From NCBI GenBank assembly GCA_030765065.1, contig CM060986.1:72595573-72659572 (forward strand): a stretch of 64,000 bases of DNA. The letters run 5' to 3'. Under the pieces are notes generated by a model. That model was not told the DNA's origin. It did not search any database and worked only from the letters and a program-made list of their open reading frames with translations. Source of the DNA: Deroplatys truncata (taxonomy: Eukaryota; Arthropoda; Insecta; Mantodea; Mantidae). The position numbers were made by a program, and so were the translations under genes. Positions 13,501-25,500 of the stretch are shown here, piece by piece (within the stretch, counting starts at the first letter, position 1; each line of letters opens with the position of its first letter).

Positions 13501-16500
13501 TTTTCTATAAGCTCAAACATTTCAATGACAGAAATATTCATAATTCACGTAAGGAAATGAAAATAACTGCAATGTCTAAATTTTCTCTGGCTTCTAGCCA
13601 GGTAAGTAGTTGGTTTGAAACCAATGTTTTGAGGATGTTTATCTTCGACTATAGGATAAACTGAATGCCTTCGAAACTTCGGTTTCAAACCATCTACTTA
13701 CCTGGCTAGAAGCCTGGGAAAATTTAGAGTTATGTCGTCAGGAAAGCTTCAGCTTTTATTTTAACTGCAGTGTCGTTTCAAAAGAACTACATAATCTTAA
13801 CACATTAAGCGCCAGAGTAGTCCCTGGGTTCCGCTGTATGCAATTCTTGTCGGGCCATGACAGTCCATATGACCACTATGTTTCTGGACTAATTTAAGAT
13901 TTCTACAACCCAGCGGTCCACTGAAACATTGAGTTTTACCTATAAAATGGATCTCTGTGGCCCTTATCTAAACATTACTACCACTGGGTTTGGAGTTGGT
14001 ATATTATGGAGGTCTAAATTACAATATAAAAAATCTGATGTGTTACACTCACATGACTTTCTCTACTCTTGTACAAACTATTTTTACAAACGCTTATTCT
14101 CCACACGCTTCATGTTAATCGAGATGTTAATCTTATTGCTAATTTTCTTGTAGATGCAAGGGGAATATGGTAGGTTTAAAATAGAGAGTTGAGGGTTGTT
14201 ACACTACATCACTATGATATACATCACAAGTAAGAATATCATAGTGATGTAGTGTAACAACCCTCAACTCTCTATTTTAAATTATGACACATCACTGTTA
14301 CCCGCTTCTAAGTCTTCAAAAGTAGTCAAGAATATGGTAGGTTTTAAGCGGTAATCAAATCTTTTAACCGCTGGTTGCTATGTGGCGCATTCTATTCTCT
14401 TTGCATGTCCAGGACATAAAAAAAATGAATAAAAATGAGAAAAAGTATAAGTATTGGAAAATTTAAGGGAATAACAAGCAATATCTCGAAAATGGTTCAC
14501 TTAACAAAAAAAATGTATATGACATATCAAAATCGTTAGAGCCATTTTTGAGAAAATTAAAATTTTCGAAAAATGTTCCATTTAAAGGGTAATCTGGGGT
14601 GGGGGATTTTCTTGAAAACCTTCATGTTGCATCTCTGGAAGATACTGAACCTAAATACCAAGTTTGGTGTTTATCCGACTGTTCGTTTCTGAGTTATGCT
14701 GTTCACACACACACACGCACACACACATGGACACGTTTCCAAAAATGCTTTTTTTTTGGATTCAGGGGGTCTCAAAACATATATTTCCGGTGAAATCTCG
14801 GTATTGAATTTTTGGATGGAATACAATACTTCCCCTACTTACTATACGTAGTAGAGAAAGTAAAAATGTCATAAGCATGAACAAAAAAAAAATTTATTAA
14901 CTGTGTTTACATACCTACAGTCAGCCAATAGAACACAATAATGCCATCAAGCAAAAAGCTTAATTAGAATTGCTGTCAAAGAATGTGTTTAGTTCTAACA
15001 ATCAAAGTATACAAAATATGGAATATCAGAAATGTTTTGTTTTTAGCTTTGAATTATGAAAATTAACAAAGCATGATAAACAAAAATGAGATTTTCTGTC
15101 GCATACTTCACAGTATGTGGTTACTTTCTTGACTTTATTTTATGAAAATTTCCTGTGACTTTCTTTTTGTAGCATCCTTTACAATACTTTTGTGCCTTAT
15201 GAGCTGGTCCATTGTGTTTCTTGAGGGTATGCATGTTTGGAGGTTTTCTTTTCCTAAAGCTTGACGTCTGCTGCTGCTGAGAGGAATCACTCAGAGTTTC
15301 ATTGGAGAACACTGCTTCTATGATATTTTCTTTTCTTTGAAATCTGTGATGCAAATGTGTGAACAAAAATCCTATTCAGTAATGGTGAACATCGTGAAAG
15401 CACACTTTCTACATTACACATAAGGGCTGCCAGCCTAACAATACAGACTTTATATCATTAAAAAAAATCAATTTTACTTCGATGAATCCATGCATTGGAT
15501 AAAAATTACTGTGGACTGCTATGCAGGACCACTGGTCTCATGATAAAATTTCTTGTGAGGGATCGCCAGAATTACTTTTATAATAATTGCCTATATGGTG
15601 CTTTACAAAACTAATCTTTGCAGTAAGTTAATATTTAGTGTGCCCTTTGTTGACTTTTGGTAAAAGTCACAGCGGTCAAATATCTACTGGTGCGTAACAT
15701 GTTAAATATTTGATGGACCATCAAGATTTGAAGGGATAAAAATTGCTCCTCAAAAGTTGACAAGAGCTTTGGTGTTCAAAATGATACACATTTTGATGAA
15801 ACAGAACCTCCATTTATAACGAATCATCACCGCTTGATGATCCTCTAAATCTTAGTGACAGTTGATGAAACTGATGAGTATTCTGACCATACCAATATTT
15901 CCCCCATTCATGAAAAACCTTATTAACATATGTACCAAAATGAGCTGAAGATTGTTTACTAGAGCAGGCAGTTGTTATATTTGGGGCTTCTATTGTTTAA
16001 TTCATTGCAAATTAGCTCTTCTTGATTTTAGGCACAAGTGTTTTAACCATTTTGCTTAGACAATAATTGTGTTTCATTTTCAGTTTTCTTGGTTGTATAA
16101 GGCAGAGCAGGACTCTGAAGCACAGCAAAGGAAAATACTAACTGTACCATCCATAGAGGAGCAAGCTGGATCTACAGATAGACCTCTTATGGTGGACACT
16201 TGGACTTATAGGAACAAAAATTACATTATGTATGTCCCTGAAGGTGAATAATTCAAATTTGTTGATGTAGTTTTAAATTTAGCTTTAACTGATAACATGT
16301 AATCAAATGCCGCCAGGGTAAAAGGGAGTGTCACTCTTGAACATCAGTAAATGTGTAGCTTAAGAACTTAAGTTTTAATTTCTGTACCACTTACCTATAG
16401 TAGTGGTATTATAAAGTAGGTAGAGGAAATTCAATTTTGACATTACACCATATTTGCAGATTTTGAGCTCCCATACCCCCCCCCCCCCCAAAAAAAAAAA

Positions 16501-19500: not shown

Positions 19501-22500
19501 TATGTTAATTAAAAACAGAAGCACTATTAACAGTGAAGTATTCTTCATGACGTCACCCAGTCGCTAACGATGAAGACAAATGCCCTCAAAAACGTTTCTG
19601 TTTTATACAGCATTTAATTTAGTGAAGGCGAGTGTCAATAAGGGTGACTCAATCTACCATCATAGCGACTATGTTGTTAGTAAACAGCTGTTCAGGGAGC
19701 TTCAGAAGTGAAACAGTGTGGTTTTATTTTAATTCTGCAGAGCTACGCATCTGTGTGGCTGCTAGAATAATCAATAAAGACCAAAACTTACTGGAGTAGG
19801 CACAGGATTTAATTACAATGTTATCTTCAGTCATAAAAGATAAAATTATATTCATTAATTCTTCTTCTGTGTGTAGGCTGAAGTTGGAAAGTAGATCAGA
19901 CTGAAACATTAATTGCCAAAGCACAGGATTTGGTTTTCCGTGTAGCTTCTCTAACCATGGGGTATGTTATCTTAAAATTAATTTGAGAATGACTTGTGGT
20001 TTACCAATATGAGTCATAAAATTCTATTGCTTAACATTTTGATTCGAAGTCCCATATTTCAGAATTTCTGATCCTCCTTTTATACAAAGTTGACCTCACT
20101 CTACTATCAAATTTGGTATTTATTTGACTTTTCGTCCTTTATTTATGCTGTTCTTGGACAGATAAATATTGTACCGGTAAACTATTTTAAGAATGCATTT
20201 TTTGGGGCTCAGGTTCTGCAAAATATGATTTCAAGTGAGTAAGAGTTTGAAAATTTTGAATATAGTGCACCTTTGCAGAAATAGTTCATTACCCACTTCG
20301 TTGTAGGTACAAGGAGTTTAGAGGAAACCAAATAAACAATCAGATCTTTAAAAACTGGTTACTAAAAAATTACAAAGCATTGAAAAATTCAAACCAATAA
20401 CAGATATCATAGAAATGGCTGATGCCACAAAAAAAGTTATTTGAAATAAATTGTGTGTTTTAAAGAGAGATAATTTTTGTGTAGTATGTTTTTGGCTTTT
20501 TCTTATGGTTTACCTGTTATATAAAATTATACAAAATTCCTTCAGAATGAAGAGGGTTTCACAAGCTATTCCCAGAAAATTCAACACATTTGTTTTTTAT
20601 TTATTATGTAAATATTTTAAACATATGGTATTTTGGAAAAATAGAATCAGTCTGAAAAATTCAATGTCTTTGCCTGGATTTGAACCATAGATCTTTCTAT
20701 TTCCATCCAGGTGCTCTAACAACTGAGCTACCATGACAATATGCCGGCACAATATTAAATTCCTCGACTCGCATTTTTTCCAATAAACCACAAGGAGATC
20801 TCAAATCTCTGCAATGGAATTTAATTTTTCAGTCTGATTCTACCTTTCCAATCTTGTCCTACACACAGTTGTGTGAAAGAACAATTAATTACCATTGATT
20901 GACCTAATAGTTGGATAAATTATGAAATCCAGAACTTAAAGTACTTACAACATTGTAAGTCGCTATTAGGGTATGTTATCTCAAAATGGATTTGAGATCT
21001 CCTTGTGGTTTACTGGGGAAAATGTGAGAGAGTCAGTTGAGGAATTTAATGTTGTACCAGCATGTTGCAATGGTAGCTCAGTTGGTTAGAGCAACCGGAT
21101 GAAAACTGAAAGATCCAGGGTTAAAATCCTGGCAATGACATTGAATTTTTGTCTGATTCTTTCCTACTTTGTTCCTTGAATACAGCTTGCGTGAAAGACA
21201 ATTGATTACCATATGGTATTTTAATCAAAATCAATATAGCCATTTTTGAGAAAATCCACAATTTTGAAAAATCTTTCATGTAAAGGATAGTTTGAGGGTT
21301 GGAGGTTTTACTTGAAAATCTTTGTGTCACATCTTTGGAAGATGTTGAACCTAGATATCAAGCTTGGTATTGATCAGTTTTGTTTTGGGGTTATACCGCG
21401 CGGACACATACACACACACATACCACGCACGCACACAAGTCTTTTGTAAAACTCCTTTTTTTATTTATTCAGGGTGTTTTAATACATTTTTGGTAAATCT
21501 GTACATTGGATTTTTGGATGAAATGCAATACTTCCTCTTAGAGATAGGCGGCAGAGAAAGTAATTTGGCTTCAGAGAATCTTGTGACAAAAGATTTAGAT
21601 GACTCGTGAGAGAAATGGAGTCAATACTTCATTATTAACTTCTAATTGGTTGCAGTAAGTTAATATTTCCTTAAGAGTTAGGTTATTCACTTAGAGTTAA
21701 TTATCATTACCTACTGAGACAAGTTTTAAGAAATTTCATTGTAAGACTTAACTATTATAATACTTGCAATAACAATGAATATTGTGTTTAGGTGTGGAGC
21801 TGACAGCGGAAGAGCAAGTTGAGATGGCAAAGCAGAGACAACAAATTGTTCATTCCAACACACGATTAACACGGAATCCCTTCGATGAACGGCAGAATAA
21901 AGAAACTATACAACAGTTAGCTCAGTCACAAGCACATTCCTTGGAGGGTAAAATTGGAGTGGATGGAAAGGAACTCACTCATTCAGAGACACCAAAAGTC
22001 AATGGATTTAGTTTTGTGAAAACTCCTTCACCAGCTCCAGGTATAGTATAACAATTGACTAATTTTGAAGATTTAGAAGCTAGTAACAGTGATGTGTCAT
22101 AACTTAAAATAAAGAGAGTTGAGGGTTGTTACACTACATCACTAAAATATTCTTACTTGAACGCGTTTCGGGAGACGGTTTGTTCCCATCGTCAGCATGT
22201 TCTCAACTGATTTTTCTGGTCATTGTCTGGGGGATGTGTATGGCTAGTGGTGTTCTCTGGTGCTGGGCTGATGAACCTCCAAAGGCTGCTGGGTGGCGGC
22301 AGTTCGAAATTCATTAGGTGATTCCTGTGTTTGGCAATATGTATTTTTTCCCAGATGTCCAATTCATTGCTGCTGTTGATCGGTTTTAAGAGTTTTATGT
22401 TCGGAGTGATATCATGGTTTGAAGACCAGAAATGATGTGCTGCTGCTGATTTATCTGGCTGCTTTTGGTAAATGCATCTCATATGCTCTTTAAGTCTTAT

Positions 22501-25500
22501 TTCAAGATTTCTTTTGGTTCTTCCTATGTATACCAGGTTACATTCATTACAATCAATTTGATATATGCCAGCTGATTTATCGTTGGGGATAGAATCTTTT
22601 GTTCTGTTGCATAATAGTTTCTGTATATTGTGGTTATTCTGTGGAGACAGGGTCCTGTCAAACACAGGAATCACCTAATGAATTTTGAACTGCCGCCACC
22701 CAGCAGCCTTTGGAGGTTCATCAGCCCAGCTCCAGAGAACACCACTAGCCACACACATCCCCCAGACAATGACCGGAAAAATCAGTTGAGAACATGCTGA
22801 CGATGGGAACAAGCCGTCTCCCGAAACGCGTTCAAGTAAGAATAGTTTAGTAATGTAGTGTAACAACCTTCAACTCTCTTTATTTTAAATAGTATAACAA
22901 CTTAGTAAAATTCCTTGGTCTACGGACTGCGCGAGTATTCAGGAGGGATAAATCGTCCCCACTCTACTTGTCTTTTCTCTTTAGCTACTGTGTTATCCAA
23001 TGAGTGTCTTAAAGAGGAAGTGGGCTGATATGCAGCAAACAAGTGTCTACGGCTTTGTTGTGAATATAGCAATTTTTATAGTTTAGAAAAATTTAATAGG
23101 ATCTTGCTTACATCGTGATAACTCAAAGACTAAAATCCTTATTCCAGTTCTGTAAGAGGTATGTTAAAGAGCACAGTTTCGTGGTGGTGGTGGTGATGAT
23201 GATTATGATGATGATGTATGGTTGGTCTCCCTGTAAAAATATGAAAGCTGCTAGTTTTCTTTGTAAAACTTCAATTGAATAATTTGTATCATGAAAATCA
23301 ATCAGCGAGAAATGTTTTTCCTTGAAGAGAAAGATGGGGGAGTGAAGGCTATGAAATATCCTAAAAAGTGTAATTAACTTTTGGAAGATATTCCATGATA
23401 ATACCACAAGTATGTGAAATGCTATTGCTAGTTATAGGAAACATTTGTTTTCATACCACTGCACCTTGCTCTTTGCATGGCTTGTCACAGCAATCTACAA
23501 ATGCAGCATTTTTATTGCAATGCTCTTGTGTCTTTAGTCCTGCCTCTACAGTTGGTTAGTTACAACAGTGGCGTGATTAAGTGATAAACAATTTTGTGTT
23601 TTGTAATAAAATAAAACACGGGCTAGGTGAAATTATGACATGCGCTGCTTAAGCAGTGACTCGGAGGCATGCCCGCCCAGGCAGTTAGAAAAAACCCCTC
23701 CCAAGGGTTTTTTTCTAAGTTGCTGAACTATGGATATAGAAGCTATGTTCCTATTTTAGTTAATTTCTAATGTAGAAGGTTGCGTGATATTGATGGTATT
23801 AACTAAATTTAGAGTAAACTGGATACTAGTGCCTATGACACTAGTTGTTTTTAGTTCAGCAGATGTGTCCGAATAGATTCTTTTTTGTTTTCAAAAAGGA
23901 TATGCTGAATAAGTGAATTGTGCTGCAATGATAATATGTTACAGAGTAAAGGTGGCTCAGACATGCAGTCTTATGTTGTTTACTTGCACTCTTAAGCGAT
24001 TAAAGATACAGTAAAACCTGTCCAGCGGAATTGAACGGGGCTCTTGAACATTTCCGTTTAATGAAGGTTTGTTTTAAATACTGATTTATTTGGTAACGCA
24101 TGGAAGAATAGTCCCGTCTCATTGCCATTTACTAGCACACTTGTAGATACAATATCAGCAGTAATAAAGACGTGGCTAAACTCCATTAATGTCAATACAG
24201 AAGAGAGAGAAGAATTAATTAAATTAACTGAATTGTGCATCCATCAGAACTATTTTATGTTTAATCAGAAATACTACCAGCAAGCTTCAGGTCTTGCTAT
24301 AGGTAATCCATTATCACCGATTTTGGCAGATTTGTGTATGAGAATATAGAAATACACATAATTAATGCTTTCCCATATATATTTAAACTATCGTATAGAT
24401 ACGTGGTCGATATTGTTGCAAGGATTCCTATTAAATTTACAAGATAGAAAATTCACAATGGAGGTGGAGAATGACAATGTGTTACCATTCCTAAAGATTA
24501 TTAGACATGAAAATATACTTAAATTTGAAATCTATAGAAAACAAACTCACATGGACAATTATATTAAAAGAAAGAGGTGTAATCCCACTTCTCATCAATT
24601 TGCAGTATTTAATAGCCCAATATACAGACTTATTAATATTCCTTAACACAGGAGGAATGTGATAAAGAATATCAACACATATTAAGAACAGCAGAATTAA
24701 TTTGGTTTGAACCCCCCAACATAAACAAGATGTTAAAAAGGAAGAAAATTTGAAGGCATTATCTCAGATGACAACATTGAAGAGGGTGGATGAAAATGTA
24801 AAAAAAATACAAGTAGTTTACGTACCACCTATAGGCGTTTAAGAAATTTGAGAAAATATTTAGAGGGTATAACATTAAATTGGTTCCACAAAGCAAATTT
24901 AATTTAAAAAATCTGCTTAATAATCCACTTAACAATAAACTATCACATAAGATGAAGTCAGGAATATATAAAATAGAATGTAATGACTGAAAAATTCTAT
25001 ATTGGAAAAGCCAAAAGAAATTTTGATACTAGACTAAAGGAACCTCAAAGAACAATTAGAAACAATTAGATAGGTCTGCAGTTGCATTTAATTTGGGAAA
25101 GAAAATCACAGTATTAAAATCCTCAAACAGACCATATCAGCATCAAGTCTAACTGTATGGGAAAAGCTATACATTTTTAAGAATGCTCAAGACATCATTA
25201 ACTTTGAAATTCTGCAATTGAGCAACTTCATAAAAGGTTGCTACTCTACCACCAGATGGCAGCATGGACCCAGTCAACCGATGAAGGAAGATTTGGGGCT
25301 TGGTCACTAAATGGCTGAGGATGAGGTCAACAGACCTTGAAAACGTTACCAATTAAAACCATTCAATAAAAAACTGAAGTGTGAATATGAGGTGACCACT
25401 GTCTCATTAAGAAAAACAACTTCACTGTTAATAGTGCTTCTTGTCAATATAAATAGTCTTACAAAGTTGAATAACCCAGCTTAAAGAGCTGTTCGTTTGA

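Follow-up and report, generated by a model that had tools for sequence, protein, structure and literature searches.

A 64,000-nucleotide (nt) stretch of the genome of the mantis Deroplatys truncata (GenBank GCA_030765065.1, contig CM060986.1, positions 72,595,573 to 72,659,572, here called the window) contains an insertion of a Penelope-like element (PLE) within an intron of the gene ESS2. Both arms of the insertion carry the core letters of a hammerhead ribozyme and, across the genome, the arms of related insertions begin in excess at the predicted ribozyme cut. The explanation favoured here, given a probability of roughly 0.7, is that one PLE insertion was primed from both target strands, that the hammerhead of the living element is placed at the 5' end of the RNA and cuts this template, and that the copies within ESS2 are passive remnants.

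The insertion occupies 22055-22888 and is bounded by a 12 nt target-site duplication (TSD), ATAGTATAACAA. It is larger than the 22152..22840 reported in an initial annotation, which was made from the letters of the window. Its arms, 22104-22336 and 22656-22888, form an inverted repeat of 233 nt that is 96% complementary, and are two head-to-head copies of the 3' part of the PLE, each with a hammerhead core. Positions within the element are given in units of the left copy on the minus strand, unit 1 to 599 running from 22653 down to 22055. The tailed end of this copy is common to many copies in the genome. The host gene was correctly named as ESS2 on the plus strand; the exon upstream of the insertion matches Pfam Es2 and the 'Splicing factor ESS-2 homolog' (PDB chain 8c6j_4, E 3e-18). 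The splice donor and the PLE are 14 nt apart (22041-22055), and the donor GT is intact because the duplicated target site starts at intron position 3.

The element is an endonuclease-bearing PLE, as first suggested, with inverted arms, a tail on one of them and a TSD. The left copy encodes a GIY-YIG domain (PF01541, 25.8 bits; cutoff 22.6). The copy in the window is too short to contain a reverse transcriptase (RT) domain. In a direct tandem copy elsewhere in the genome (L040, repeat of 2701 nt), RVT_1 (PF00078, 45.6 bits) and GIY-YIG (24.3 bits) are present in one frame of 603 codons. Resemblance to an element of Anolis suggests Poseidon/Penelope-type as the clade name.

Each arm carries CTGACGA-T-GGGA...TCCC-GAAA-CGCGTT, one arm on each strand. 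In hammerhead residue numbering, the order is C3-U4-G5-A6-C7-G8-A9, an unpaired U, GGGA/UCCC, G12-A-A-A, CGCG and U-U. The type I core consensus, CUGANGA ... GAAA ... UH, is matched in order by both arms. Cleavage is predicted directly after unit 494 in both, making unit 495 the end of the cleavage product. In the right arm the core 22797-22832 gives a cut after 22832 on the plus strand, the position initially proposed. Exact matches to the pattern CTGACGATGGGAN{4,16}TCCCGAAACGCGT number 4,144 (2102 + 2042) in the 4.29-Gb genome, against 0 for the reversed control, so that the motif is no chance occurrence.

The proposed helices are only partly as described. GGGA/UCCC can pair as helix II, with one U (position 10.1, between A9 and the helix) unpaired, and the minimum-energy fold pairs the stretch otherwise. 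Helix I is weak by eye, having two pairs, a mismatch and two pairs. The short self-complementary helix III is present as the palindrome ACGCGU, which can pair only between two molecules and makes no hairpin within one.

If the complementary DNA (cDNA) ran off its template RNA where an insertion arm has its 5' end, the position of that end reports where the RNA ended. A spike of ends at unit 495 was predicted before the systematic sets were assembled, when four short mates were known (492, 492, 504 and 511), two of which had prompted the idea. The arm-end census draws on the genomic sequence of this one species. A mini PLE insertion in the window, identified after the prediction, has a tailed arm whose first position is exactly unit 495, where the cleavage product is predicted to end, and a TSD of 14 nt, GAATATGGTAGGTT (14163-14176 / 14330-14343).

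For the junction sample, a pattern of two inverted anchors with a gap of no more than 30 nt identified 142 head-to-head centres (control 0), and 111 distinct centres among those listed were examined, one tandem repeat being left out. Unambiguous junctions were found in 73, giving 146 definite ends. The 18-nt stretch of unit 484-501 holds 90 of these, with 23 at 495, 16 at 493, 12 at 501 and 8 or fewer at any other position. The remaining 56 are at 502-503, a limit imposed by the pattern. The excess at 495 has p 5e-10 against a uniform distribution over the 18 positions and 3e-6 against one over 491-501, values that are rough because the patterns demand that both arms reach unit 503 and limit the gap to 30 nt, which thins the longer arms.

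The complete locus was retrieved for twenty centres, of which 17 have a definite 495 end and 3 are ambiguous. A TSD-like repeat of at least 12 nt, no more than 9 nt from the called ends, is present in 17 of the 20; the repeats are shorter in L160 (6 nt), L174 (7 nt) and L162 (9 nt). The flanks of the 20 centres also differ, so they are separate insertions. The fetched mini-elements are 142-172 nt, the misread L160 aside, having been selected for short centres.

The anchor sample was drawn from 11,476 exact anchors. The first 100 among the matches listed, all on one chromosome, gave 82 regions, to which all 34 anchors of a rarer variant and the elements of the window were added. From 151 arms, 24 were dropped as duplicates or re-sightings by sequence likeness, a few of which may be separate young copies. 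In the resulting 127 arms there are 8 ends at 490-494, 4 at 495, 2 at 496-500 and 23 at 501-511; none is within unit 474-489, and 43 arms extend out of view. Of the 17 ends within unit 484-501, 4 are at 495. A second sharp end is found at the A of TCAGTT, where 14 of the 127 arms begin exactly, with 14 others starting no more than 9 nt after it. This A precedes C3 by 13 nt, or by 15 nt in a second subtype, and resembles an initiator. It may be the 5' end of the RNA, and it looks like the transcription start.

Several results weigh against the favoured explanation, the thinning of longer arms in the junction sample among them. No Rfam hammerhead model matched in the whole window at the gathering score, and none matched at E<=10 in a 1.2-kb region or in 86 nt. 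The initial annotation had taken the lack of a covariance-model hit, together with a lack of cleavage in vitro, as grounds for abandoning the ribozyme, and the first of these is what was found. It had also pointed to monomer and dimer folds. The monomer is predicted to disfavour the hammerhead, whose energy exceeds that of the ensemble by 7.2 kcal/mol owing to a competing hairpin, GAUGG/CCGUC. A 60-nt dimer does pair through the palindrome, at a predicted -23.1 kcal/mol, which is a small gain over two monomer ensembles (2 x -10.7 kcal/mol). The first mates examined, L032 and L034, end at 492 and not 495; unit 492 was rejected as the end, the BLAST ranges of the L034 arms overlapping by 7 nt and so making this junction ambiguous. 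The excess at 495 in the anchor sample is weak (p 0.013 for 484-501 and 0.03 for 484-516), with 2 of the 4 ends being the two arms of a single insertion, L117. Set against these 4 ends, the 23 arms at unit 501-511 are many, and are not accounted for by cleavage alone. In the junction sample, 34 of the 111 centres are ambiguous, as their arms overlap by microhomology, and 4 of the 111 were excluded by hand where a point change hid the end. The ambiguous centres include 8 perfect AACGCGTT palindromes and 15 of one type joining 495 to 502. For the Anolis element, Frangieh et al. 2024 found no RNA reads at the cut site (PMC11167929).

The second peak, 2 nt upstream of the cut, was likewise not predicted by cleavage. 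The 16 ends at 493 are at TTCAAG, with 4 ends at 494, and may reflect two non-templated A, another RNA end or a stop inside the dimer duplex. The last of these belongs to the alternative that survives best, in which the whole 495/493 cluster comes from RT stops where the RNA is folded or dimerised (duplex AACGCGUU, unit 487-494), cutting not being required. Such a stop would leave the same 495 ends, the predicted dimer pairs in the way that it needs, and the 493 peak with the ends at 490-492 would suggest partial entry of the RT into the duplex. However, a duplex of 8 bp is a weak block and the predicted dimer is hardly stabilised. The 8 palindromic junctions traverse the duplex, and 495, the position exact for a hammerhead, had been named in advance. 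We consider this alternative unlikely, although it deserves to be taken seriously.

It is improbable that the stretch is simply coding or start-codon sequence with no ribozyme function. The stop TGA (unit 460-462) and the following ATG (unit 465-467) are both inside the core, as C-TGA-CG-ATG, the unpaired U at 10.1 being the U of the AUG. The adjoining letters can be read as the codons GGA ACA AGC CGT CTC CCG AAA CGC GTT, and the failure of Rfam to match and the weak monomer fold would be expected of such sequence. Against this, the invariant core letters are all present and in order, arm ends are enriched at the predicted cut, and the equivalent motif of Anolis cleaves, with C3 and G8 mutants behaving as expected (PMC11167929).

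For ESS2 itself, the initial annotation held that the sense pre-mRNA would carry the right-arm ribozyme 757 nt after an exon. The strand, the core and the distance from the exon end (22040) are right. In the predicted fold of the 860 nt from the donor through the element (-514.8 kcal/mol), 36 of the 36 nt of the right ribozyme are paired with the left arm, making a working intronic ribozyme, and any separate ribozyme function in ESS2, unlikely. That the right arm actively cuts ESS2 pre-mRNA is the least credible of the alternatives, its strand, intact core and place past the exon notwithstanding, as the core is fully paired, the monomer is without helix III and the insertion is one among thousands of dispersed copies.

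The initial annotation had drawn attention to the opposed pair of hammerheads. Among the first 100 matches listed, adjacent motifs no more than 6 kb apart form 19 head-to-head pairs, 1 tail-to-tail pair and 3 direct pairs, where about 0.8 close pairs are expected by chance among these positions. The opposed arrangement is the usual head-to-head form of PLE insertion, found in 19 of the 23 close pairs, and not a special ribozyme pair.

A further regularity concerns the tail. In the first fetched loci, which include the window and were chosen by a tailed arm or by a motif pattern, all 20 inverted pairs with both ends visible combine an arm ending near unit 599 with one ending near unit 550 (L020 and L022 run off the locus). 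A stretch of 11-13 nt is shared by both ends in 14 of these 20. The pairs of the anchor sample, which were not selected by tail, follow the one-tail rule in 16 of 18 cases, the exceptions being L068, with tails on both arms, and L115, with a tail on neither. In the junction sample, likewise not selected by tail, the rule holds in 21 of 22 rows, the exception being L160, where the script stopped inside an arm. The mini-element of the window was missed by this script and has the 550/599 ends. These arm ends fit one RT start site for each target strand.

Two groups of copies were observed in addition. On C1, at about 20.5-22.0 Mb, 15 PLE pieces (L099, L101-L106, L108, L110-L114, L118 and L119), spaced by about 15 to 600 kb, agree in their called ends (unit 446 and 594) and have an A replacing the core G12; a copy with a dead ribozyme has apparently been amplified there as a block. 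A tandem duplication of a PLE mini-element is seen at G000:C11:196939099-196939229, where two identical centres are separated by 83 bp.

According to the favoured explanation, a Poseidon/Penelope-type retroelement would have entered the ESS2 intron in one event, in which both cut target strands primed reverse transcription, at unit 599 on one strand and unit 550 on the other. Two fixed RT start sites in the element RNA would thereby give two head-to-head partial copies, each with a minimal type-I hammerhead at the start of the ORF. In the living element, the hammerhead would be at the extreme 5' end of the mRNA, which would start 13 nt before C3 and be cut about 49 nt into the transcript, the ribozyme probably working as a dimer or together with the element protein. 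Cleavage before reverse transcription would cause the cDNA to run off at the cut, giving mini-insertions that begin there, with arms of 56 and 105 nt. Uncut or tandem RNA, intact to the cap or read through, would give the longer copies. It is likely, rather than proven, that the template RNA is cleaved in vivo. The ribozymes in ESS2 would be left as passive remnants that are mutually complementary and are probably held in a long hairpin. What the data show directly are the anatomy of the insertions, the TSDs, the copy number and the excess of arm ends; the rest of the explanation is interpretation.

It is possible to go further, with a proposal for and against which we see equal weight. The hammerhead may cut its own template before or during target-primed reverse transcription, with the cut-start mini-insertions as the record of this. 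Lying 56 and 105 nt short of the RT start sites, the ribozyme would then be a switch, removing the cap and the first AUG and so determining whether a full copy or a short, dead-end insertion results.

The core ATG was considered as the start of the main open reading frame (ORF) and rejected, since the window copies and L040 alike have an in-frame TAG 15 codons on. This TAG is present in most of the copies seen. The core ATG may therefore open a short upstream ORF or a first exon. The TAG and a splice-donor-like GTAAG, which stands 3 nt past the predicted cut, are within unit 498-512 (for example window 22836-22850). Both RT start sites are downstream of the GTAAG, perhaps in an intron.

Minimal type-I hammerheads of PLEs were reportedly described by Cervera and de la Pena in 2014 and by Lunse et al. 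in 2017. Two further papers show that PLE hammerheads, including minimal forms active as dimers, are already published (PMC7761336, PMC6466107), and by comparison of descriptions the copies here resemble them in the core, in having no normal helix III and in the palindrome that permits dimers. In the Poseidon PLE of Anolis carolinensis (PAc), the hammerhead is at the ORF start and cleaves only when protein is added, and the tail is defined by two internal sites where reverse transcription begins (PMC11167929). The mantis element is like PAc in that the C3 and G8 of its hammerhead immediately precede the ATG and stem II begins where the ORF does, and in its two RT start sites, optional tail and cutting and extension of both target strands. 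It differs in the in-frame TAG 15 codons past the ATG and the GTAAG 3 nt past the cut, and in that genomic arm ends cluster at the cut, where PAc has no RNA reads.

The Penelope elements of Adineta vaga, as described by Arkhipova et al. 2013 (PMC3846280), are similar in having direct or inverted pseudo-long terminal repeats (pLTRs), head-to-head and with a tail on one, a 9-bp TSD and a pLTR that takes in the first ORF codons. Their copies are few, whereas the element here has thousands, and the word 'hammerhead' does not occur in that text. The satellite hammerheads of newt and axolotl (PMC7229834, PMC6155905) also have a weak helix III with a palindrome and dimers that favour cleavage. They are non-autonomous tandem retrozymes with loop-loop contacts, whereas the hammerhead here is at the 5' end of an element that codes for RT. 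Both the kind of ribozyme and the insertion architecture being already published, the element in the window belongs to a known kind. What is new is the excess of arm ends at the position of predicted cleavage, together with the sharp end at the initiator-like A. A search of titles and abstracts in the open-licence literature, with subscription papers mostly outside it, found none on insertion ends at a PLE ribozyme cut.

The features described are collected in the table. Elsewhere in the window, two tRNA-like sequences are found within 20633-21150, at 21067-21140 on the plus strand (33.6 bits) and 20665-20737 on the minus strand (29.4 bits; Rfam cutoff 29). They sit in facing inverted repeats that are 80-90% complementary, and the region is probably an inverted pair of tRNA-derived short interspersed nuclear elements. 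A stretch at 24961-25041, which is 75% similar to the part of the PLE that encodes GIY-YIG, is perhaps an older relative.

Table. Coordinates of the ESS2 insertion, the mini-insertion and associated features in the window
Feature	Position	Strand	Remarks
ESS2 exon	21792..22040	+	3' limit is the donor GT 22041-22042; 5' limit approximate
TSD, left copy, ATAGTATAACAA	22043..22054		sequence repeat at both insertion borders
Left PLE copy, unit 1-599	22055..22653	-	GIY-YIG C-terminus of ORF, hammerhead, next ORF start, tail
Tail, 49 nt, unit 551-599	22055..22103	-	on one arm only
Left-arm hammerhead core	22160..22195	-	motif; predicted cut 22160/22159
Open frame with GIY-YIG domain	22192..22674	-	TGA within ribozyme core; next ATG overlaps A9
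Putative RNA 5' end, A of TCAGTT	22784 (right arm); 22208 (left arm)	+; -	14/127 arms start there
Right PLE copy, unit 318-550	22656..22888	+	5'-truncated, without tail
Right-arm hammerhead core, C3 to predicted cut	22797..22832	+	motif; cut 22832/22833; arm ends of other copies support the cut position
TSD, right copy, ATAGTATAACAA	22889..22900		sequence repeat at both insertion borders
Mini PLE insertion	14176..14329		154 nt, head-to-head; untailed arm 14220 to 14176 (-), tailed arm 14227-14329 (+)

The activity of PLE hammerheads in vivo is termed 'still a mystery' in one article (PMC7761336). Insertion-arm ends offer a way to read the ends of template RNA from assembled genomes. Repetition of the result in other species would help to decide if the ribozyme is active in cutting during retrotransposition, and would account for many of the head-to-head PLE insertions that are tiny. 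Models of dual-strand priming by PLEs are constrained by the finding that, almost invariably, one arm has a tail and the other has none. If the explanation is true, genomic arm ends could be used to assay ribozyme activity wherever a species bears PLEs.

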